Of a DNA stretch of 35,778 nucleotides, positions 2,828 to 28,457 are shown in pieces. Each line of letters starts with the position of its first letter. Position 1 is the stretch's first letter. Location of the stretch: contig JAPOLH010000008.1 in the NCBI GenBank assembly GCA_029977225.1, forward strand, positions 1-35,778. The letters are read 5' to 3'. The notes under the pieces were generated by a model that saw nothing but the letters and a program-made list of their open reading frames with translations, had not been told where the DNA came from and did no database searches. Made by a program: the position numbers and the translations under genes. The DNA is from Verrucomicrobiaceae bacterium. Lineage in GTDB: Bacteria; Verrucomicrobiota; Verrucomicrobiia; Verrucomicrobiales; Akkermansiaceae.

Positions 2828-3922
2828 ATGATTCAAGCCGACCCCACCCGGGAACTCTGCGATGCCTTGGCCGAAAGGATTTTGGTGCTCGATGGCGCCA
2901 TGGGCACGACCATCCGCACCTACGGGCTTAACGAAAGCGACGCCCGCGGCGAGCGCTTTGCCGATAGCGAAAAGGACCTGCTCAACAATGGTGACATTCT
3001 GAGCCTCACACGCCCGGGAGTCATTGGCGACATCCACAAGCGTTTCTATGAAGCGGGCTCGGACATCTGCGAGACCAACACCTTTTCCGCCACCAGCATC
3101 GCGCAGAGCGAATTCTTTGTCGAAGACCCGCGCGAAAAAGGCGGACGCAAGGACCCGGAATTTTTTCAGAAGATCATCGAGGATCCGTTTCTCAACGAGC
3201 TTGCTTGGGAAATGAATGTCGAGTCGGCCAAGCTCTGCCGCAAGTGGGCCGATGCCGTTGGCAGCGATACCGGTCGCAAGCGCTATGTCGCTGGAGCGAT
3301 CGGGCCGCTCACGGTTTCGCTCACCAACTCGCCCGACGCCAATGACCCAGGCTTCCGCGTGGTGAATTTCGATCAGGTGCTCGATGCGTACAAATTGCAG
3401 ATCAAGGCGCTGATCGAGGGTGGTTGCGACATCCTGATGATCGAAACGATCTTTGATTCGCTCAATGCCAAGGCCGCGGCGGTGGCCGTTCAGGAAGTTT
3501 ATGCGGAAATGAAATTGCATCTGCCGCTGATCATTTCGGCAGCGGTCGGGCTTGGTGGTGAAACGATGATTTCCGCGCAAAAGGTCGAGGCGTTTTGGAA
3601 TGCCTTCGCGCACACGCATCCCTTGGCGATAGGCCTCAACTGCTCGCTCGGGCCCGACCTCATGAAGCCGCACCTCGAGGATCTCTCTGCCTGTGCGACC
3701 ACTCACATTTCCTGCTACCCGAATGCCGGTCTGCCCAACCCGCTCGCGCCCACCGGCTTCGACCTCGAGCCCAAGCACATGCATGATTACATGGCCGACT
3801 TCGCCAACGCCGGCCTGCTCAACCTCGCCGGCGGCTGCTGCGGCAACACCCCAGACCACATCGCCGCCATCGCCCAAGCCGTCGCGAATAAAAAGCCAAG
3901 GGAAGTGCCTGGTATCGGATGA
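2828..3922 (+). CDS. metH: Methionine synthase, homocysteine-binding module only (split MetH, part 1)
   Basis: This 364-residue protein is the N-terminal homocysteine S-methyltransferase barrel of cobalamin-dependent methionine synthase and nothing more. The zinc ligands that activate homocysteine are all present: C272 in GLNCSLGP and C337/C338 in GGCCGN. The substrate region LDGAMGTTIR (residues 21-30) and the FSATSIAQ stretch are also typical. The frame ends with PREVPGIG and then TGA, exactly where complete MetH proteins enter the linker to the folate domain. The remaining three modules are encoded at 4435-7194. The stop codon lies one base outside the left inverted repeat of the inserted unit. 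The ATG at 2828 has a weak AGGGG about 14 bases upstream. The two polypeptides presumably associate to work; this is inferred from all key residues being kept. Confidence 0.95.
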   Translation: MIQADPTRELCDALAERILVLDGAMGTTIRTYGLNESDARGERFADSEKDLLNNGDILSLTRPGVIGDIHKRFYEAGSDICETNTFSATSIAQSEFFVEDPREKGGRKDPEFFQKIIEDPFLNELAWEMNVESAKLCRKWADAVGSDTGRKRYVAGAIGPLTVSLTNSPDANDPGFRVVNFDQVLDAYKLQIKALIEGGCDILMIETIFDSLNAKAAAVAVQEVYAEMKLHLPLIISAAVGLGGETMISAQKVEAFWNAFAHTHPLAIGLNCSLGPDLMKPHLEDLSACATTHISCYPNAGLPNPLAPTGFDLEPKHMHDYMADFANAGLLNLAGGCCGNTPDHIAAIAQAVANKKPREVPGIG

Positions 3923-3923
3923 G

Positions 3924-3965
3924 TCGAAACGCGGAGACGCGGAGCTCGCAGAGGAAGACGCTGAG
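3924..3965 (+). repeat. Left 42-bp inverted repeat of GxxExxY unit
   Basis: These 42 bases begin TCGAAACGCGGAG and are the reverse complement of 4386-4427 with 5 mismatches by hand alignment and no gaps. The repeat begins 1 base after the metH part 1 stop codon and ends 19 bases before the GxxExxY start. Confidence 0.9.
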
Positions 3966-3984
3966 AAGATTTTGAGACCACACC

Positions 3985-4383
3985 ATGAGAACAAAGGACG
4001 AGTTGAATGAATTGTCGGGAGTGATCATCGACGCCGCGATGGAAGTTCATCGTGAGTTTGGGCCTGGATTACTTGAGCGGGTTTATGAGGCGGCACTTGC
4101 CAAGGAGCTTTCGCTCAGGGGGATATCCACAACTCGACAAGTTGCCGCGCCGGTCATCTATAAAAATGAACTGCTCGATGAGGATGCTTATCGAATCGAC
4201 TTGTTAGTGGAGGATGCCGTGGTGGTTGAACTAAAAACCGTTGCCGCACTTCTTCCAATTCACGAGGCTCAAATCCATACCTACATGAAGCTTTCTAAAA
4301 AAAGCCTCGGATTGTTAATCAACTTTCACACATCGCTTCTTAAAGATGGCATCAAACGCCATGTCATCAATTTTCCCCAATAA
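3985..4383 (+). CDS. GxxExxY protein (PD-(D/E)XK nuclease-like superfamily)
   Basis: A 132-residue protein of the GxxExxY family (Pfam PDDEXK_3). The name motif is G28-x2-E31-x2-Y34 in GPGLLERVYEAAL. The nuclease-like core is visible as D72 in YRIDLLVED and E82-x-K84 in VVVELKTV, the D...ExK arrangement of PD-(D/E)XK enzymes. The conserved HEAQIHTYMKL and GLLINFH segments follow. The biochemical role of the family is not settled; the fold suggests nucleic acid binding or cleavage. It lies alone between inverted repeats, in the gap between the two metH pieces and on the same strand. The ATG at 3985 (MRTKDELNELSG) matches the usual family start. Its codon use is more A/T-rich than that of its neighbours, which supports later arrival. 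Confidence 0.92.
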   Translation: MRTKDELNELSGVIIDAAMEVHREFGPGLLERVYEAALAKELSLRGISTTRQVAAPVIYKNELLDEDAYRIDLLVEDAVVVELKTVAALLPIHEAQIHTYMKLSKKSLGLLINFHTSLLKDGIKRHVINFPQ

Positions 4384-4385
4384 CA

Positions 4386-4427
4386 CTCTGCGTCTTTCTC
4401 TGCGAACTTCGCGCCTCCGCGTTTCGA
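4386..4427 (+). repeat. Right 42-bp inverted repeat of GxxExxY unit
   Basis: These bases end CTCCGCGTTTCGA and pair with 3924-3965 as an ungapped inverted repeat (37 of 42 matching). The repeat begins 2 bases after the GxxExxY stop and ends 7 bases before the ATG of metH part 2, so that start codon lies immediately outside the element. Confidence 0.9.
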
Positions 4428-4434
4428 TTTAAAA

Positions 4435-7194
4435 ATGAAAACCATTCCACACGCTCTTCGGCTTTCCGGCACGGAGGCCTACAACCACACTGCCGACAAG
4501 CGCTTCCTGATGATCGGCGAGCGCACGAATGTCGCGGGCTCACCGCAGTTTGCCAAGCTGGTTCGCGCGGGTGATCTCGAAGCGGCGGTGGAGGTTGCGC
4601 GTCAGCAAGTCGAGAATGGCGCCAATGTCATCGACATCTGCTTCGACGACGGGCTCATCGACGGCAAGGCGATGATGTCACGCTACCTGCAGTTGCTGCA
4701 AGGCGAGCCGGATGTGGCGAAGGTGCCGATCATGGTCGACTCTTCGAAGTGGGAGATCCTCGAAGCCGGCCTGAAGTGCCTGCAGGGCAAGGGCATCGTC
4801 AACTCGATCTCGCTCAAGGAGGGCGAGGAAGTTTTCAAAAACCACGCGCGTCACATCATGCGTTACGGCGCGGCGGTGGTGGTGATGGCCTTCGATGAAA
4901 ACGGCCAGGCCGCTACCTACGAAGAAAAGATCCGCATCTGCGAACGCGCGTATCGCATCCTGGTCGATGAGGTCGGATTCAATGCCGACGACATTATTTT
5001 TGATCCGAACATCCTCACCGTCGCCACCGGCATCGAAGAGCACAACAACTATGCGCTCGACTTCATCAATGCGACGCGATGGATCAAAGAAAACCTTCCC
5101 GGCGCGAAAGTCTCGGGCGGCGTTTCAAACATTTCGTTTTCATTCCGCGGCAACAATGTCGTGCGCGAGGCGATGCACTCGGCATTTCTCTATCACGCCG
5201 GCAAGGCGGGCATGGACATGGGCATCGTCAATGCCGGCATGCTCGAGGTGTACGACGAGATTCCGAAAGAACTGCTCGAGCATGTCGAGGATGTGCTTCT
5301 CAACCGCCGACCCGATGCGACCGAGCGTTTGCTCGAACTTGCAGAGCGCTTCAAGGGTCAGGGCGGCAAAAAGGTCGAGGAAGATCTTTCGTGGCGCGAA
5401 GAGCCGGTCGAAAAGCGCCTCGAGCATGCCTTGCTGAAGGGCATCGACAAATTCATCGACGAGGACACCGAAGAAGCCCGCAAAAAATATGGCAGACCTC
5501 TCAAGGTCATCGAAGGCCCATTGATGGATGGCATGGGCGTTGTCGGCGACCTCTTCGGCGCGGGCAAGATGTTCCTGCCCCAAGTGGTCAAGTCGGCGCG
5601 CGTGATGAAAAAAGCGGTCGCATGGCTCACGCCATACATGGAGGAGGAAAAAGCCGAGCACCTCGCTGGCGACATTGCGGCGATCAAGGCCGATAATCCC
5701 GCACTCAGCGACGATGAGGCATTGCGTCTTGCCGAACGCGGCCGCTCGGCCGGCCGTTTCCTCATCGCCACGGTGAAGGGCGATGTCCACGACATCGGCA
5801 AAAACATTGTCGGCGTCGTCCTTGCGTGCAACGGCTTCGAGGTCACCGACCTCGGCGTGATGGTCCCCTGCGACAAAATTTTGGACAAGGCCATCGAGAT
5901 TGGCGCGGATGTCATCGGCCTCTCGGGACTGATCACTCCATCACTCGACGAGATGGTGCATGTCGCCAAAGAAATGGAGCGGCGCGGATTCAAAATTCCG
6001 TTGCTCATTGGTGGCGCCACCACTTCCGCCGCGCACACGGCCATCAAGATCGCCGAGCATTACTCCGGCCCGATCGTGCATGTCCTCGACGCCTCGCGCT
6101 CGGTACCTGTCACGACCTCGCTGCTCTCCGCCGATCAACGCGACGGTTTCGTCCGCGACAACCTCGCGAAACAAAAATCGCTGCGCGAAAATTTCATCAG
6201 CGGCCCGAAAAAAGAAACCCTCACGCTCGAACAAGCCCGCGACGCAGGGCCAAAATACGATTGGGACAACTACACTCCGCCCGTGCCGGGATTCATCGGC
6301 ACGCGGACGCTTGATATGCCGCTGCGAGACCTCGTCGATTACATCGACTGGACGCCATTCTTTCATGCGTGGGAGCTGCGCGGGGTGTGGGATCGCGAGC
6401 AAAAAGTGCTCAAAACGAAAAATGCCGAAGGCGCGGCGGAAGCGGCAAAGCTTCATCAGGACGCGCTTGGCTGGATCGATCGCATCATCGCAGAGAACAA
6501 ATTCTCCGCGCGCGGCATTTACGGATTCTTTCCCGCCAACTCGGCCGGCGATGACATCATCGTCTGGACCGATGAAACACGTACAACCGAGCGCACGCGC
6601 TTCCACAGCCTGCGCCAACAGATCAAAAAGGACTCGGGCAAACCCAATGTCGCGCTAGCCGATTGGGTGAAGCCCTGTAGCACCGACCACATCGGTGGAT
6701 TTGTCGTGGGCATCCACGGGGCCGATGAATTTGCGGCAGAGCTCGAGAAAGACAACGACCCCTACGGTTCGATCATGGTCAAGGCGATTGCCGACCGCTT
6801 TGCCGAGGCCTTTGCCGAATGCCTGCATCACAAAGCTCGCATCGACTGGGGCTACGAGGCCGAAGGCGAGCTGACCAATGATCAGCTCATACATGAAAAC
6901 TATCAGGGCATTCGCCCCGCGCCCGGGTATCCGGCGCAGCCGGACCACACGGAAAAGCCATTGCTGTTCGACCTGCTTGGCGCGACCGCGGCCACCGGCG
7001 TGTCGCTCACCGAAAGCTGCGCGATGCACCCGGGAGCGGCGGTCTGCGGGCTTTATTTTTCTCATCCCGAGAGCCACTACTTCGCCATCTCCGAGCTGCA
7101 AAAGGATCAGATCGAGGACTATGCAAAACGCAAGGGCATGACCTTTGCCGAGGCGGAGAAATGGCTTGGTCCGTGGCTGGGATACATTCCGTGA
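4435..7194 (+). CDS. metH: Methionine synthase, folate, cobalamin and activation modules (split MetH, part 2)
   Basis: This 919-residue protein carries the rest of MetH. The pterin-binding barrel (about 25-290) has GERTNVAGS and VDSSKW. The helical cap (about 320-405) has GPLMDGM and [13 protein letters not shown]. The Rossmann cobalamin domain has D450-V-H452-D-I-G455, in which the histidine is the lower axial cobalt ligand, and [10 protein letters not shown]. The C-terminal reactivation domain that binds S-adenosylmethionine has [15 protein letters not shown] and ends [13 protein letters not shown] stretch at about 405-440 between cap and cobalamin domain is longer than in E. coli. The N-terminus [12 protein letters not shown] lines up with the linker that follows the homocysteine module in complete MetH. 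No Shine-Dalgarno is seen before the ATG at 4435. Together with 2828-3922 the full enzyme is accounted for. Confidence 0.95.
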
Positions 7195-12718: not shown

Positions 12719-13750
12719 TCAAAGGGCTGGAGCGAGGTCTGGCCTCGGCAGCTGCAAGCCCAGCAGGTGATGCGGCAGCGTGGTGATCATGTAAAAAACG
12801 ATGCCCGCCACTGCCAGTGTGTGAGCATTGAACGGGCCCAGCAGACAGCAGATCGGGATGAGGCAAAGGACAGTGGGCACCATGAGCGGCAGGCTGATGC
12901 CGTGCACGCGAACCAAGCGCCGCACTAAACTCGCGGGCGCGGCCGGCGGCTCGATCACCTTGCGCGTGCAGGCCAATCGCCGCGTGTGGCGGTACGCATG
13001 CACACCAAGGAAAAACATGCCCACCGCGAACAGAGGATCCGCAAAGACCGCAAGAGTGGCCACCAAGGCATGCTCGATCAGATCAAAGCTTGCCCTGCGC
13101 GCCCTGCCACCTCGCCATCTCACAATCGCACTGACCATCGCAAACCCAGCGCCTGCGATAACACCGAGCCATGAGAGTTTTTGCAAATGCATGATGTCTG
13201 GCATCCACGTGGTTTTCGGCTTCCATGCGAATGCTTCGGCAATTTGAGCAAATGGCGCCCAGGCCGACACCGGATGCATCGCAAACACCACGGCCAAGAG
13301 TAACAAGCCGCGACCGAATACAAATGACCAACACGCGAAGGCACCATCTCTATCGATTCGCAATGCCGTCGCATCGGCCATGCCGAAGTGAAAGATGGTA
13401 AGCCCGAGAAACAGCAACGCGAAAACGCCTGGCTGCCATAGGAGAAACAGTAAGCAGGCAAGCATTAGCCCAAAGTAGCCCGCAAAACCCGCAAGCTGGC
13501 GTGTGAACAATTTTTTACCGGTGAGCCGTGCCCGCACCATCCAATCGGCCGCGCCGTGAGGCATGCCAAAAATCAGCAAGGCAAACACGAATGGCCATGC
13601 GGCAAAGCGCTTTGTGATCTCGGGTGCGATGATACCGACCGCGCATCCGATCATCAGCATCGCCCACGGCAAGGCCCGCGGACCGGACCACAGCGCTCGC
13701 GCCGAATTCAATGGGCCGGCTCGCTCAAAGCTTTCACGCCTTGATAGCAT
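12719..13750 (-). CDS. blh: Brp/Blh-family beta-carotene 15,15'-dioxygenase
   Basis: Blh cleaves beta-carotene centrally into two molecules of retinal, the chromophore of microbial rhodopsins. This 343-residue polytopic membrane protein shows the family's metal-binding histidines: GMPHGAADW (H65), TIFHFGMAD (H121), GVHAYRH (H251, H255) and TTLPHH near the C-terminus, all within or beside hydrophobic helices. The start is taken as the ATG at 13748-13750, which overlaps the end of the rhodopsin gene by 43 bases; a TTG at 13798 would overlap it by 91. The overlap suggests translational coupling. It lies directly downstream of the rhodopsin gene, the standard pairing for a self-sufficient retinal system. 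Carotenoid genes (crtE, crtB, crtI, crtY) are not in the window, so beta-carotene must come from another locus. Confidence 0.93.
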   Translation of the reverse strand: MLSRRESFERAGPLNSARALWSGPRALPWAMLMIGCAVGIIAPEITKRFAAWPFVFALLIFGMPHGAADWMVRARLTGKKLFTRQLAGFAGYFGLMLACLLFLLWQPGVFALLFLGLTIFHFGMADATALRIDRDGAFACWSFVFGRGLLLLAVVFAMHPVSAWAPFAQIAEAFAWKPKTTWMPDIMHLQKLSWLGVIAGAGFAMVSAIVRWRGGRARRASFDLIEHALVATLAVFADPLFAVGMFFLGVHAYRHTRRLACTRKVIEPPAAPASLVRRLVRVHGISLPLMVPTVLCLIPICCLLGPFNAHTLAVAGIVFYMITTLPHHLLGLQLPRPDLAPAL

Positions 13751-14613
13751 GCGAGGCCGAAGAACACTTTGTTGATCACATCCGCGACGTTGTAACAAAC
13801 CTCGCGCCAGCTTTCTCCATCAGCTCCGCCGAGGGCCATCAGAAAACCCACGGGATAGATCACCCAACCAAGCAGGACATAAAGCCGCATCGTTTCCAGG
13901 CTTCTCTGGATGCTCGCCGGCGCGCTCTTCATCGCTTCGGAAACTTTGCTATAAAGCATGTACACGATGTAGAGCCATGCGACGCAGCTCACTGCATACC
14001 ACAGCCACCATTGGCTGCTGCCAGTTTTACTTTCCTCCGCCACCCATGCCGTGATGAGCATGACAAAGGCCCAGAAAACGAGCCCTCGAAACAACTTAGC
14101 ACCCTTTCGGCCAAGGTTGAGCAAAAGCGGAAATTCCATCAGCAGCAGCGGCACGGTGATGAGCCAGTCAATGTAGCGATAGGCCGTCGGAAACTGCCGG
14201 ATCGTGGCGCCTGCGATGCGATTCCCATTGGCATCAAACAGCGAAGCCACGCCTTCCAGATAAATGCCGCTCATCCGCCAGTAATGAAATGCAGCCACCG
14301 CGCAAATGATGCCAGCCACCGTCAGTGTCGTCTGATACCGCGTCAGTACGGTCTTGCGCTGAAGCCAAAAGAACAACGCGCCGGCACCCATGGCAACCGT
14401 GGCCAGCCAGAACAGGTACATCGTGACGCCCTCCATCGTAAGGCCCGCATTCAGCGCCTTCATGGTGGTCGACATGTCGGCAAGCGTCAGCAAAGGGAAG
14501 TTCAACGCGAACAACTTGCCCTGCGAAAACAATCCGCCGGTTTGTTTCTCGTAGCTTAACGCGTCATTCGAACCTGCCCCGAACTCCTTTTCCGTGTTGG
14601 TGTGAATTTTCAT
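13708..14613 (-). CDS. Proteorhodopsin-type light-driven proton pump
   Basis: A seven-helix microbial rhodopsin of 301 residues. Helix C reads RYIDWLITVPLLLMEF, giving D149 (proton acceptor), T153 and E160 (proton donor), the DTE triad of proteorhodopsin proton pumps. L157 stands where marine proteorhodopsins carry Leu (green) or Gln (blue), so green absorption is predicted. Helix G has DVINKVF with D278 and the retinal Schiff-base lysine K282. H110 in AFHYWRM matches the conserved helix B histidine next to the acceptor. The first 50 or so residues precede the first helix and are longer than usual; starts at Met47 or Met51 are possible. It lies upstream of blh. A hairpin is found just before the ATG. 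It would generate a proton gradient at the inner membrane in light. Confidence 0.96.
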   Translation of the reverse strand: MKIHTNTEKEFGAGSNDALSYEKQTGGLFSQGKLFALNFPLLTLADMSTTMKALNAGLTMEGVTMYLFWLATVAMGAGALFFWLQRKTVLTRYQTTLTVAGIICAVAAFHYWRMSGIYLEGVASLFDANGNRIAGATIRQFPTAYRYIDWLITVPLLLMEFPLLLNLGRKGAKLFRGLVFWAFVMLITAWVAEESKTGSSQWWLWYAVSCVAWLYIVYMLYSKVSEAMKSAPASIQRSLETMRLYVLLGWVIYPVGFLMALGGADGESWREVCYNVADVINKVFFGLACYQGVKALSEPAH

Positions 14614-23032: not shown

Positions 23033-24781
23033 TTGCGCCGCATCATTTCGGATGCTACGCTTGCCCGCTTTACAATCCATCCCCAGACACTTTTTCACCC
23101 AGTGTTTTCCAACGAAGATTATCTTGCGGAGCTGCTCAACGAAGCCGGAGTCGTGAGCCCAGAAGAGATTGCCGATGCCCGCCGCAGGGTTTCTGGGTCT
23201 CAATCGCTCGTCGCTTATCTGCTGGCCAACACCGCACTCACTGAAGATCAGATCGGCGAGGTGCTTGCCGCCAATGCGGGCATCGCGTTCGTGCGGCTTG
23301 CCGATCTTCAATTTCAACCGGGCATCACCGAGACCATCACCGAGGATACCGCCAAACGCTACCGTGTGATCCCGGTGCAGGACGATGGCCTCACACTCAC
23401 CATCGCGGTGGCTGATCCGCTCGATTTTGAAACTCTCGACTCCCTGCCACACATCATTGGCCGGGATCTCAACTTCGTTTGCGCCACCCAACCGGACATC
23501 CAATACCACTTGCGGGAATTCTACCGCGCCACCGACGCCTCGCCCGATGATGGCGCATTTGGCATCCAAGTGACCACCGGCGACCTCGAGGCGGGTGCCG
23601 ATGCAGATGACGCCCCCGTCATCCGCCTGGTCATTCAGTTGCTCAGCGAGGCGTTTCGCCTGCGCGCATCCGACATCCACATCGAGCCACTCGAAACGTC
23701 CGTGCGCGTGCGCTACCGCCTCGACGGCAAACTGATCCATGTCGACTCGCATCCGAAAAAACTTCTGCCCTCCATCATCGCACGCCTCAAGGTGATGAGC
23801 GGCACGATGTCGATCGCTGAAAAACGCATGCCACAAGATGGCCGCATTCAGCTCAAAATCGGCGGTAAGGAAGTCGACCTCCGAGTCTCCTCGGTCCCCT
23901 CCAACCACGGCGAGTCGATCGTCATGCGGATCCTCGACAAAACCGCCCTCATGCTCGGCCTGCCGGAGCTGGGGTTTTTCTCCGACGACCAAACAACCTT
24001 CGAGCAACTGCTCGGGCTGCCTGATGGCATCTTGCTCGTGACCGGCCCAACCGGATCGGGGAAAACCACCACGCTCTACGCCTGTCTCAACGTCATCAAC
24101 CGCCCCGACAAAAAAATCATCACCGTCGAGGATCCGGTCGAGTACGAGCTACCCGGCATCAACCAGGTGATGGTCAAATCCGATATCGGCATGACCTTTG
24201 CCGCGGCCCTGCGCGCCATGCTGAGACAAGCGCCCAACATCATCATGATCGGGGAAATTCGCGATGCCGAAACCGCCAACATTGCGATCAATGCATCGCT
24301 CACCGGCCACTTGGTTTTCTCCACGCTTCACACCAACGACGCCCCCTCCGCCGTTGCGCGTCTCGCCGATATCGGCGTGAAGCCCTTCCTCATCGCATCG
24401 GCCGTGCGCGGGGTGCTTGCGCAGCGACTCGTGCGCAAGCTTTGCCCGATCTGCAAATCCCCGACCGAACTCACCGAAAAGGAAATGCGCGCGCTATCGC
24501 TCGATGCCTCACGCACGATCGACGCCACCACCTTCGGCCCTGTCGGCTGCGACAAATGCCGCGGCGGCGGCTACAAGGGACGCATGGGAATTTTCGAATT
24601 GTTTCTCGTCGATGACGAGGTTCGCCAAATGATCAATACCGGTCTCACCACTACCCAGTTGCGACGCCGCGCGCGCGAACTCGGCATGCGCACGCTGCGT
24701 GAGGACGGCATCCGCAAGGTGCTCGCAGGCCTCACTTCGGGTAGCGAAGTGGTTCACACCACCATGTCCGACGCCGACTGA
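23033..24781 (+). CDS. GspE/PilB-type secretion ATPase (first copy)
   Basis: A hexameric ATPase that drives assembly of type IV pili or type II secretion pseudopili from the cytoplasmic side. It has an N-terminal GspE_N-like domain (about 25-165) and the ATPase core: Walker A GPTGSGKT (338-345), Asp-box region ITVEDPVEYEL, Walker B IIMIGEIRD (403-411) and the His-box LTGHLVFSTLHTNDA. A four-cysteine zinc site is present (C471, C474, C506, C509). The 582-residue frame begins with TTG at 23033, just after GGAGA, but a GTG at 23102 (VFSNEDYLAELL) fits the family start better, so the N-terminus is uncertain. Its stop lies 34 bases before a second ATPase of the same family. It is divergent from nos. 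Confidence 0.92.
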   Translation: MRRIISDATLARFTIHPQTLFHPVFSNEDYLAELLNEAGVVSPEEIADARRRVSGSQSLVAYLLANTALTEDQIGEVLAANAGIAFVRLADLQFQPGITETITEDTAKRYRVIPVQDDGLTLTIAVADPLDFETLDSLPHIIGRDLNFVCATQPDIQYHLREFYRATDASPDDGAFGIQVTTGDLEAGADADDAPVIRLVIQLLSEAFRLRASDIHIEPLETSVRVRYRLDGKLIHVDSHPKKLLPSIIARLKVMSGTMSIAEKRMPQDGRIQLKIGGKEVDLRVSSVPSNHGESIVMRILDKTALMLGLPELGFFSDDQTTFEQLLGLPDGILLVTGPTGSGKTTTLYACLNVINRPDKKIITVEDPVEYELPGINQVMVKSDIGMTFAAALRAMLRQAPNIIMIGEIRDAETANIAINASLTGHLVFSTLHTNDAPSAVARLADIGVKPFLIASAVRGVLAQRLVRKLCPICKSPTELTEKEMRALSLDASRTIDATTFGPVGCDKCRGGGYKGRMGIFELFLVDDEVRQMINTGLTTTQLRRRARELGMRTLREDGIRKVLAGLTSGSEVVHTTMSDAD

Positions 24782-24815
24782 CCTTTTCCCAAAACCTTTT
24801 CACCGCGCCAGTCCT

Positions 24816-26486
24816 ATGGACCATCATCAAATCGTCGAGCTCTTCGAAGCCAGAGGTCTTATCGACCAGAGTCTCGCCCAGGAAATTCTCGCGGAAGTCG
24901 CCAACAGCGGCAAAACCGCGGGGGAAATCCTCGCGGATTTCGATGTCATCCAAAACCGTGATGATGTCTGGCCAGTCGTGGCCTCCGAATTGGGCGTCCA
25001 GATGGTTGATCTGCGCGATTGGACTCCGCCAGAAGCCATTCTCGCTTTGATTCCCGCCGGCACCGCGCGCCTCCACGGAGCGTTGCCAGTGCAGTTTGAC
25101 GAGGCTGGTTTGCATGTCGCGCTGGTCGATCCGCTCAACCCGCAGACGGCCGAAGACCTCCGGTTCGCACTCGGTCGAGAGATCAATGTCGTGATCGCGC
25201 CCGACTACCTCGTCGAAGCCAAGATCAATGACTGCTATGGCGGAGAGGGCAAGGCGATGGAGGACCTCCTCAACCAGCTGGTCATCAACAGCGAGTCACA
25301 GAACGCCGCCGATCTCGAATCTGAGGCCAACTCGGCGCCAATTATCCGCTATGTCGATCTGGTCCTTTATCAAGCCATCAAGGAACAGGCCTCCGACATC
25401 CATTTTGAGCCGTTCGAAAACGAATTCAAAATCCGCTACCGCGTCGATGGTGCACTCTACGAAATGGCGCCGCCGCCCATTCACTTGGCGCTGCCGATCA
25501 TCTCGCGCGTGAAAGTGATGTCGAACATGAACATCGCCGAGCGCCGCATCCCGCAAGACGGCCGCATTGTGAAACAGATCGGCGAAAAACAGGTCGACAT
25601 GCGGGTCTCGTCGCTGCCCACCCATCACGGCGAATCGATCGTGCTTCGCGTCCTCGACCGCTCATCGGTGAATCTCTCACTCGAGAACCTCGGCCTGCCC
25701 GAATACATTTACGATTACATCACCGAGACCATCGAAAAACCCAACGGGATATTCATCGTCACGGGCCCCACCGGCGCGGGCAAGACCACCACCCTCTACG
25801 CCGCACTGCGCCGCATCAACACGATCGATTCAAAGCTGCTTACCGCTGAAGACCCGGTCGAGTATGACATCGACGGCATCGTGCAAATCCCTATCAACGA
25901 AGCAATCGGCCTCGACTTTCCACGCGTGTTGCGTGCGTTCCTGCGCCAGGACCCGGACAGGATCATGATCGGGGAAATGCGCGACAGGGAGACCGCCACC
26001 ATCGGCATCCAAGCCGCGCTCACCGGCCACCTGGTTCTTTCGACCCTTCACACCAACGACGCGCCCGGCGCGGTGACGCGCCTCATCGACATGGGCTGCG
26101 AGCCCTTCCTCGTCGGCGCATCGCTCGAAGGCGTGCTCGCTCAGCGGCTTGTCCGCACGATCTGCAAGGAATGCAAATCTCCCTACGAACCCAACGAGGC
26201 AATTCTCGGTCAGCTTGGCCTCTCCGCCCATGAGTTGGGCGACAAACAATTTTCGACCGGTGCCGGTTGTGACAGTTGCGGCCAGACCGGCTACCGCGGC
26301 CGTCGCGGGCTTTACGAGCTGCTCAACATCACCGACCCGATCCGCGAGCTGATCACTGCCCGCGCTCCAACGGTGGTGATCAAACAAAAAGCCGTTGAGC
26401 TCGGCATGAACACGCTGCGCGAAGACGGTTTGCGCAACATTTACCTCGGCCACACCACGATCGAGGAAGTGTTGAAGTACACTTGA
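24816..26486 (+). CDS. GspE/PilB-type secretion ATPase (second copy)
   Basis: A paralogue of the preceding gene with 556 residues. The N-terminal domain (about 1-150) is followed by the ATPase core with Walker A GPTGAGKT (317-324), LTAEDPVEYD, Walker B RIMIGEMRD (382-390) and LTGHLVLSTLHTNDA. The zinc site has C450, C453, C485 and C488. The two copies align throughout but differ enough to be long-standing paralogues rather than a recent duplication. In type IV systems a pair could be an extension and a second extension or retraction motor, but PilT-type retraction ATPases lack this zinc site and N-domain, so both look like extension/secretion motors. The ATG at 24816 (MDHHQIVELFEARG) is clear. 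It precedes gspF by 88 bases. Confidence 0.93.
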   Translation: MDHHQIVELFEARGLIDQSLAQEILAEVANSGKTAGEILADFDVIQNRDDVWPVVASELGVQMVDLRDWTPPEAILALIPAGTARLHGALPVQFDEAGLHVALVDPLNPQTAEDLRFALGREINVVIAPDYLVEAKINDCYGGEGKAMEDLLNQLVINSESQNAADLESEANSAPIIRYVDLVLYQAIKEQASDIHFEPFENEFKIRYRVDGALYEMAPPPIHLALPIISRVKVMSNMNIAERRIPQDGRIVKQIGEKQVDMRVSSLPTHHGESIVLRVLDRSSVNLSLENLGLPEYIYDYITETIEKPNGIFIVTGPTGAGKTTTLYAALRRINTIDSKLLTAEDPVEYDIDGIVQIPINEAIGLDFPRVLRAFLRQDPDRIMIGEMRDRETATIGIQAALTGHLVLSTLHTNDAPGAVTRLIDMGCEPFLVGASLEGVLAQRLVRTICKECKSPYEPNEAILGQLGLSAHELGDKQFSTGAGCDSCGQTGYRGRRGLYELLNITDPIRELITARAPTVVIKQKAVELGMNTLREDGLRNIYLGHTTIEEVLKYT

Positions 26487-26574
26487 TTTCTGCCCGCCCA
26501 CCGCTCCATTCAGGGCGCGACTTTCCAATCGCCAAGCCGACGAATTTCCGCTTCAATCCTTCATAAGATCCGCC

Positions 26575-27855
26575 ATGCCCAATTTCCTCTATAACGCCCT
26601 CGACGCCAAAGGCGAACAGAAGTCCGGAGTCCTTGCCGCCAACTCCGAAAACGAGGCAATCCAGCAGCTTCGCGCCAGCGGGCTGTACCCGACCCAGATT
26701 CAGGAAGAAGGCAAGGTCAGCAAAAAAGCCAAGGCGGCCTTCGCACCAAAAGCCAAAAGCAAAGCCAAAGCCAAACCCGCTGCGAAAGCCGGCGGCAGCG
26801 TGAAGCCGAAGAGCCTCACGATCTTCACCCGCCAGCTTGCCACCCTCATCGATTCCGGCCTACCCCTTCTGCGCAGCCTCACCGTGCTGGAAAAACAGGA
26901 GCCTAACCCGGTGCTACGCGCCACCGTTGGTGCCCTCGCGGAGAACGTCCAAGGCGGCTCGACTTTCTCAGAGTCACTCGCACAGCACCCGAAGATCTTC
27001 AACAAACTCTACGTCAACATGGTCAAGGCCGGCGAACTTGGCGGTGTGCTCGAAGTCGTCCTCAACCGTCTCGCGGAATATCAAGAGAAGGCTCAAAAAC
27101 TCAAAAACAAGATCGTCTCGGCCATGGTCTATCCGGTGATCGTGATGTTCATCGCCGTTGGCATCCTAGTTTTCCTGATGATTTTCATCGTGCCGAAGTT
27201 CAAGGAAATGTTCACCAACACCGACCAGGAGCTACCGCTCATTTCCAAAATCGTATTCGGCACCTCCGAGTTCTTCCTGGCGCGCCCGCTCTTCCTGCCC
27301 AACGTGTTTTTCCTGTTCATCGTATTCAGCGTTTTGGTCGTGATCTTCAACATTTGGGGCAAAACCAAAGGCGGACGCAGCGCCATCGACCTGATCAAGC
27401 TGCGCATGCCGGTCCTTGGCGACATTCAACGCAAAAGCGCCGTCTCGCGCTTCTCGCGCACACTCGGCACACTCGTCACCTCCGGCGTGCCGATCCTCCA
27501 AGCGCTCAACATCACCCGCGACACCGCAGGCAATGTCGTGATCTCCAGCGCCATCGAAAAAGTCCACGAGGCGGTGAAAGAAGGTGAAACCATCGTGACC
27601 CCGCTCCAAGCCAGCGGCGTTTTCCCCAACATGGTCATCTCGATGGTCGATGTCGGCGAGGAAACCGGCCAGCTGCCGGAGATGCTTCTCAAGATTGCCG
27701 ATGTCTACGACGACGAAGTCGACAACTCGGTCACCGCGCTCACTTCGATCCTCGAGCCGATCATGATTGTGATTCTCGCCCTTATCGTTGGTTCGGTGGT
27801 GTTCGCGCTCTTCCTGCCACTGATCAAGATGATCTCGACCATGGGCAACCAATAA
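26575..27855 (+). CDS. gspF: Type II secretion/type IV pilus inner-membrane platform protein GspF/PilC
   Basis: The polytopic platform protein around which the pseudopilus or pilus is assembled and which is turned by the GspE ATPase. The 426 residues contain the N-terminal MPNFLYNALDAKGEQKSG start typical of GspF, then two T2SSF domains: about 80-205 (TIFTRQLATLIDSGLPLLRSL) and about 285-415 (RFSRTLGTLVTSGVPILQAL). Three membrane helices are predicted at about 184-206, 240-260 and 393-416. An unusual Lys/Ala-rich stretch at about 47-80 lies between the N-terminal peptide and the first domain, longer and more basic than in typical GspF. The ATG at 26575 is well supported. It is followed by the pseudopilin gene after 20 bases. 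Confidence 0.95.
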   Translation: MPNFLYNALDAKGEQKSGVLAANSENEAIQQLRASGLYPTQIQEEGKVSKKAKAAFAPKAKSKAKAKPAAKAGGSVKPKSLTIFTRQLATLIDSGLPLLRSLTVLEKQEPNPVLRATVGALAENVQGGSTFSESLAQHPKIFNKLYVNMVKAGELGGVLEVVLNRLAEYQEKAQKLKNKIVSAMVYPVIVMFIAVGILVFLMIFIVPKFKEMFTNTDQELPLISKIVFGTSEFFLARPLFLPNVFFLFIVFSVLVVIFNIWGKTKGGRSAIDLIKLRMPVLGDIQRKSAVSRFSRTLGTLVTSGVPILQALNITRDTAGNVVISSAIEKVHEAVKEGETIVTPLQASGVFPNMVISMVDVGEETGQLPEMLLKIADVYDDEVDNSVTALTSILEPIMIVILALIVGSVVFALFLPLIKMISTMGNQ

Positions 27856-27875
27856 CCAGCAAGCCACGGAACATC

Positions 27876-28457
27876 ATGATTGCCCATTCACGCCGCATCG
27901 GCAGCGCCGCCTTCACGCTCATTGAGGTATTGGCGGTCATCGCAATCATCATGATTCTCGCCGGAATCGTGGTCGGCGGCATGGAGTACGCCAAGCAACG
28001 CCAAGCCAGCGAAAAGGCGAGAGTGCAAATCGCGCTGCTGAGCAAAGCGATCGAGGAATACAAAGTGGACATGGGGGTTTATCCCGGCACGGACGAAAAC
28101 ACCGCGGTCGCCGGCGATGTTTCGGAGCAACTCTATCAGGCTTTGTTCAAGGACGGGTACGATTACACCGACCCCGCGACGCCACCGAGCTCATGGGCCA
28201 AGGCGAGCAAAATTTACCTCAATCAACTCGACCCCCGGAACAACAAACAAGGTTGGGTGCCCAAAACGACGGCAAGCACCCCCGGAACGAACATCAAAAT
28301 TCTCGATCCATGGGCCAACGGCTACCTCTACCGAAAAGGCAGCAACGCCCAGAATCCCGACTTCGACCTCTGGTCGATGGGCAAGGACGGCAAGACCAAT
28401 ACGACCAATCCCTCCAAGACGGAGACCGACAACAAGGACGACATCCGCAATTTTTGA
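27876..28457 (+). CDS. gspG: Type II secretion major pseudopilin GspG-like
   Basis: A 193-residue prepilin-like protein. The N-terminus MIAHSRRIGSAAFTLIEVLA has a short basic leader and the FTLIEV start of mature pilins, with the conserved glutamate at mature position 5 (E17). The residue before the cleavage point is Ala12 rather than Gly. A hydrophobic helix of about 20 residues follows. The globular part has the GspG signature: IALLSKAIEEYKVDMGVYPG, LDPWANGYLYRKG, and DFDLWSMGKDGK. The predicted calcium-binding loop region near the C-terminus is present, followed by an extra Thr/Asn/Lys-rich tail ending DDIRNF. It would form the pseudopilus shaft. Cleavage by a prepilin peptidase (not in the window) is needed. 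It lies 20 bases after gspF in the same direction. Confidence 0.93.
   Translation: MIAHSRRIGSAAFTLIEVLAVIAIIMILAGIVVGGMEYAKQRQASEKARVQIALLSKAIEEYKVDMGVYPGTDENTAVAGDVSEQLYQALFKDGYDYTDPATPPSSWAKASKIYLNQLDPRNNKQGWVPKTTASTPGTNIKILDPWANGYLYRKGSNAQNPDFDLWSMGKDGKTNTTNPSKTETDNKDDIRNF

Follow-up and report, generated by a model that had tools for sequence, protein, structure and literature searches.

A rhodopsin gene paired with a gene for a Blh/Brp beta-carotene 15,15'-dioxygenase raises the question of how its host comes by the beta-carotene from which retinal would be cut. Such a pair lies on the minus strand in a verrucomicrobial lake bacterium, with both genes intact, midway along a 35.8-kb contig and adjoining leuS; this contig, the whole of which was analysed and is called the window here, is one of 167 that make up a 1.75-Mb genome, which is 89% complete. 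An earlier note on this DNA had read the pair as a self-sufficient proteorhodopsin system with a green-absorbing proton pump. The presence of both genes is borne out by family scans, intact open reading frames and conservation of the pair, and the pump motif and green-tuning leucine of that reading stand as well, while proteorhodopsin identity and self-sufficiency do not. Elsewhere in the window, a B12-dependent methionine synthase is carried in two open reading frames (2828-7194), one with the homocysteine-methyltransferase part and one with the remainder, and a gene for a 132-aa PDDEXK_3 protein sits between them; as read from the open reading frames, the stretch 23033-28457 carries two tandem GspE/PilB-like ATPase genes and, after them, genes for a PilC-like and a pseudopilin-like protein.

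The rhodopsin (13708-14613, minus strand, 301 amino acids) matches Bac_rhodopsin (PF01036, E 2.8e-40, 138.6 bits) in the Pfam scan, and this domain, together with the Schiff-base lysine K282 within DVINK of helix G, makes it a type 1 (microbial) rhodopsin. All six residues that had been cited for it (D149, T153, E160, L157, H110 and K282) were found at those numbers by a script check. The proton-pump motif is present, with D149 as the Asp acceptor, T153 as the Thr and E160 as the carboxyl donor, and L157 places a leucine at the green tuning position; because of this D-T-E, His and Lys motif and the leucine at the tuning site, the protein is likely to be a green outward proton pump, as had been claimed. 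In the residue table, E160 takes the place of the lysine donor that is found in ESR, the rhodopsin of Exiguobacterium sibiricum, and in nine surveyed sister sequences. Three lysine-donor sister rhodopsins (L106, L109 and L121) have Glu in helix E where most of the set have Trp213. The window rhodopsin belongs to the same superfamily as xanthorhodopsin and Kin4B8 with their carotenoid antenna, but it has Tyr206 at the antenna site where XR, GR, psXR and Kin4B8 carry the glycine opening, and because of this a xanthorhodopsin-type antenna is unlikely and was rejected. A rhodopsin with N-D-Q replacing D-T-E, a motif that we take to be sodium-pump-like, was seen adjoining CrtY and Blh genes in another genome (L129, 5701-6654, genome G034).

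The Blh reading frame (12719-13798, minus strand, 359 amino acids) scores 103 bits against the Pfam BCD family (PF15461; cut-off 28) and 105.6 bits against NCBIfam TIGR03753, above the curated cut-off of 95.25. Its four histidines H81, H137, H267 and H343, which we take to be iron ligands, are all invariant in the Blh alignment, and the enzyme would be expected to cleave beta-carotene to retinal. It had been claimed that this gene overlaps the 3' end of the rhodopsin gene; a TTGA overlap stands, but the long overlap of 90 nt holds only with the TTG start at 13798 and probably reflects how the reading frame was annotated. Translation more likely starts from the TTG at 13711, in a TTGA overlap with the rhodopsin stop that gives a gene of 12719-13711, because all three verrucomicrobial copies preserve this junction and similarity to planctomycete Blh begins close to it.

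The pairing of the two genes is not chance, since blh lies behind the rhodopsin gene in 26 of 30 related loci and the other four stretches end inside or just past the rhodopsin; in a survey of the order, blh adjoins the rhodopsin gene in 20/20 genomes of the window's type. The closest relatives are two MAGs labelled Akkermansiaceae and Verrucomicrobia (rhodopsin identity 92%), and the gene order around the pair is common to these and the window. The other 28 loci mostly carry Planctomycetota labels, at 72-82% rhodopsin identity, and in the gene-neighbourhood comparison of loci no planctomycete locus grouped with either immediate neighbour of the pair, leuS or a gene for a 158-aa protein. One locus (L028) holds a planctomycete-type pair on a 3.9-kb contig of a 7-Mb bin labelled delta proteobacterium (G022), for which a mixed bin or a further transfer is possible.

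A tree of 69 rhodopsins, including the proteorhodopsins and xanthorhodopsins with which the earlier note had proposed a comparison, places the window rhodopsin in neither group. By this tree, its place is in a clade of Planctomycetota and Verrucomicrobiota sequences that probably lies on the ESR side; its type corresponds to a PVC set of 45 sequences, which ESR joins at weaker support (95/71) and with long branches involved. The window copy and two sister copies cluster at 100/100, and this trio nests within mostly planctomycete sets of 27 (94/94) and 24 (91/88) sequences; within a PVC subclade of 38 sequences (99/99), the window copy stands apart from other verrucomicrobial rhodopsins. Green proteorhodopsin and ten verrucomicrobial sequences form a clade (99/98) that excludes it, and the xanthorhodopsins form another separate clade. 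The closest solved structure is also that of ESR (4hyj), at 172.5 bits versus 125.0 bits for green proteorhodopsin. Descent from proteorhodopsin, which the cited residues had been said to define, was rejected on the position of the protein outside the green-proteorhodopsin clade. The grouping with planctomycete rhodopsins, apart from other verrucomicrobial ones, suggests that the gene was transferred between phyla; any direction given to this transfer would be inferred. Base composition is uninformative as evidence for transfer, with 57.4% G+C in the pair and 59.0% in the window.

The claim of self-sufficiency fails at the enzymes that would have to supply the dioxygenase. Profiles for lycopene cyclases of the CrtY type (PF05834) and the CrtYcd type (PF18916) found no match in the host genome at its 89% completeness, and no phytoene synthase of the kind found in C40 carotenoid operons was found in it either. 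Absence of any beta-carotene pathway from the genome had been named in the earlier note as evidence that would count against its reading, and for the recognised enzymes (PF05834, PF18916 and operon-type CrtB), at the sensitivity of these searches, this is what was found.

The missing cyclase is not peculiar to this genome. In the survey of the order, a rhodopsin was present in 39 of 386 genomes, 20 of which hold the window's type alone; 16 hold proteorhodopsin, xanthorhodopsin or NDQ types (among them G142, which holds both rhodopsin types and was counted in the proteorhodopsin group), and three were set aside, one with an ESR-like rhodopsin (G038), one with two rhodopsins in which no cyclase was found (G222) and one fragment (G378). 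A cyclase was scored wherever PF05834 matched over its full length or PF18916 matched at all, and by this count it was present in 0/20 genomes of the window's type versus 15/16 of the other types (14 with full-length CrtY, one with CrtYcd and one, G237, 63% complete, with neither); the Fisher p of 2.9e-9 overstates independence, these being related genomes with shared ancestry uncorrected. Several of the 20 genomes are 91-98% complete, and a few hold partial PF05834 matches of 20-23 bits. The genome with the ESR-like rhodopsin carries a PF18916 match that is not linked to the rhodopsin, and an unlinked cyclase is therefore possible in principle.

A further set of 29 genomes, drawn from the 30 related loci (27 of them beyond the two shared with the survey, and mostly planctomycete), was searched in the same manner; it omits L033, whose record prefix is the same as that of L012, and it includes three loci (L021, L034 and L035) in which the rhodopsin reaches the end of the stretch and Blh lies beyond view. 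PF18916 was matched in 0/29 of these genomes and full-length PF05834 in none. PF05834 matches occur in 14/29 (best 26.9 bits), but all are partial and as cyclases these were rejected; the four proteins among them that were scanned score best as geranylgeranyl-reductase-like or halogenase-like flavoproteins. As judged by these profiles, the cyclase gap is systematic across the window's rhodopsin type in two phyla.

Phytoene synthase was searched for in 16 of the order's 39 rhodopsin genomes (12 of the 20 of the window's type) and in 27 others, with trees of 30 and 59 SQS_PSY sequences (one a duplicate) built from fetched-locus copies only; left out of these trees were the split gene of G306, the third copy from each of the four crt-operon genomes and many of the second copies from planctomycetes. 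The host has two SQS_PSY genes, one HpnD-like and the other nearer to squalene synthase, and both fall outside the operon-CrtB clade. All four crt-operon genomes have three SQS_PSY copies each, including an extra copy in a clade of its own (98/97). Each of the 12 genomes searched that hold the window's type has one or two SQS_PSY genes (the three matches in G306 represent one gene and a split gene), and no classified copy from them falls in the operon-CrtB clade. SQS_PSY matches were found in 24 of the 27 further genomes, mostly as a tandem pair, and in the one such pair scanned, the HpnC cut-off is reached by one gene, the other being HpnD-like but below its cut-off. The exception is the 7-Mb bin G022, which may be mixed: its single SQS_PSY copy falls among the operon copies, and its best score, below the curated cut-off, is as a phytoene synthase.

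The host does appear to make carotenoids of another kind. Its genome has two crtI-family genes, one of which lies on contig C33 (L037, 12781-18058) beside a glycosyltransferase gene and a gene that matches PF18927 (glycosyl-4,4'-diaponeurosporenoate acyltransferase) at 107 bits; a gene for an aldehyde dehydrogenase is close by. This cluster looks like a staphyloxanthin-like pathway for acyclic C30 carotenoids, and C30 products would be predicted from it. Rubritalea squalenifaciens is a verrucomicrobium. Acyclic C30 carotenoids have been reported from that species, according to the part of the source covered (PMC3967232). In four genomes of genus g11 (L107, L108, L127 and L128), a crtI-family gene lies directly behind the rhodopsin-blh pair, an arrangement seen partly in G142; the g11 desaturase is 60-62% identical to the host's C161 gene, an apparent orthologue, and is distinct from the crtI of C40 operons. 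This linkage hints that the substrate of Blh is endogenous and not imported.

We favour, with moderate confidence, an explanation in which a green outward proton pump uses retinal that Blh cuts from imported beta-carotene, in a host that makes C30 pigments and has exchanged genes with planctomycetes. The rhodopsin and blh genes would have been exchanged together, probably with freshwater planctomycetes. The host would make no beta-carotene by recognised routes, its own carotenoids appearing to be acyclic C30, and because of this missing route Blh most likely acts on an acquired beta-ring carotenoid: beta-carotene, or a related compound, whose source would be algae, cyanobacteria or detritus. 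Cleavage of the acquired carotenoid would yield retinal bound at K282, through which light would drive outward proton transport. Of this, the sequences themselves show the two genes, their key residues, their pairing, the clade and, at the sensitivity of the searches, the missing CrtY, CrtYcd and operon-type phytoene synthase; the remainder is predicted. Counting against this explanation are that no carotenoid importer was identified, that rhodopsin-blh-crtI clusters occur in g11, that the host genome is only 89% complete, that G022 has a phytoene-synthase-like gene, and that G038 has its unlinked PF18916 match.

The alternative that survives best, though we think it rather unlikely, is that these bacteria do make beta-carotene, using a phytoene synthase and a cyclase that escape the profiles, for instance a cyclase of the CruA type or a new one. 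To our knowledge, neither PF05834 nor PF18916 makes a claim to cover CruA-type enzymes. Blh and the complete set of pump residues have been conserved in both phyla, which is most easily explained if the substrate is reliably at hand, and the unlinked PF18916 match in G038 also favours such a hidden cyclase. Against it, however, the SQS_PSY copies classified from genomes of the window's type all fall outside the operon-CrtB clade and, where scanned, score as C30 enzymes, and no extra copy is seen. Less probable again is that Blh acts on some other carotenoid, such as a product of the crtI-family desaturase that is linked to the pair in sister genera, to give retinal or a ring-less analogue. The clusters in the four g11 genomes and the identity of their desaturase to the C161 gene are in its favour, but it is established chemistry that retinal requires a beta ring and that acyclic C30 carotenoids have none, the Blh histidines are unchanged, and the tabulated retinal-site residues of the window rhodopsin resemble those of ESR and green proteorhodopsin. 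According to the part of PMC4871484 covered, the chromophore of E17R, a relative of ESR, is ordinary retinal, which likewise counts against it; E17R has its absorption at 524 nm (PMC4871484).

An ordinary self-sufficient pair, with its full beta-carotene pathway lying in the 11% of the genome that is unassembled, would fit an 89% complete assembly in 167 contigs, but it is very improbable because the gap repeats in 20/20 genomes of the window's type, including sisters more complete than the host (some at 96-98%), and incomplete assembly was rejected as the cause. Least credible of all is that the pair is a contaminant or a mis-binned planctomycete fragment, as the planctomycete-like position of the rhodopsin in the tree might suggest, since it sits mid-contig beside leuS in a gene order matched in two other MAGs.

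The remark that rhodopsins are less studied in this group was fair, but verrucomicrobial and planctomycete rhodopsins are in print, and a PVC rhodopsin branch near Exiguobacterium has already been published (PMC5673642, PMC6461901 and PMC10284914, in the parts covered). The freshwater Verrucomicrobiae-Tous-C5FEB branch, as presented in the portion covered (PMC5673642), shares with the window its hosts, its nearness to ESR and the prediction of a green proton pump, and the window's clade is probably clade P4 of the covered text of PMC10284914. The same text describes crtEBIY-blh adjoining the rhodopsin in most verrucomicrobial rhodopsin holders (PMC10284914). Missing beta-carotene genes, as found here, are absent from the discussion in the covered parts of PMC5673642 and PMC10284914. 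The proton donor of ESR is Lys96 in the passages covered (PMC8387761, PMC4871484), in contrast to Glu160 in the window rhodopsin and in the other tabulated rhodopsins of the 38-sequence subclade.

The green proteorhodopsin system with its crtEBIY-blh operon shares with the window the D-T-E, His, Leu and Lys residues and a linked blh, but the window rhodopsin lies outside the proteorhodopsin clade and no operon-type crtB or crtY was found for it. The part of PMC13043013 covered describes operons in which a rhodopsin gene is accompanied by blh and, optionally, by carotenoid genes. For the rhodopsins of Saccharibacteria and Rhodoluna, the host is thought to rely on outside pigment, as is proposed here, but in the sections covered those systems are without blh (PMC9296517, PMC7734400), whereas the window has blh and is missing the earlier pathway. 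Rhodopsins of the window's clade are already known, and Blh without a beta-carotene pathway was not found in print: no report of a clade that keeps blh yet is without beta-carotene genes genome-wide was found in the passages, sections and abstracts searched.

What sets this lineage apart is that it retains the final enzyme without the recognised enzymes that precede it, a pattern that follows a single rhodopsin clade through two phyla. We raise only tentatively, as a possibility with the balance somewhat against it, that this rhodopsin-Blh lineage obtains its chromophore by an undescribed route, either with Blh scavenging an imported carotenoid or with a novel cyclase or the host's own desaturase products leading to beta-carotene or a retinal analogue. 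If this is true, the phototrophy of lake Planctomycetota and Verrucomicrobiota would either depend on the beta-carotene of others or hold an undiscovered route to retinal.
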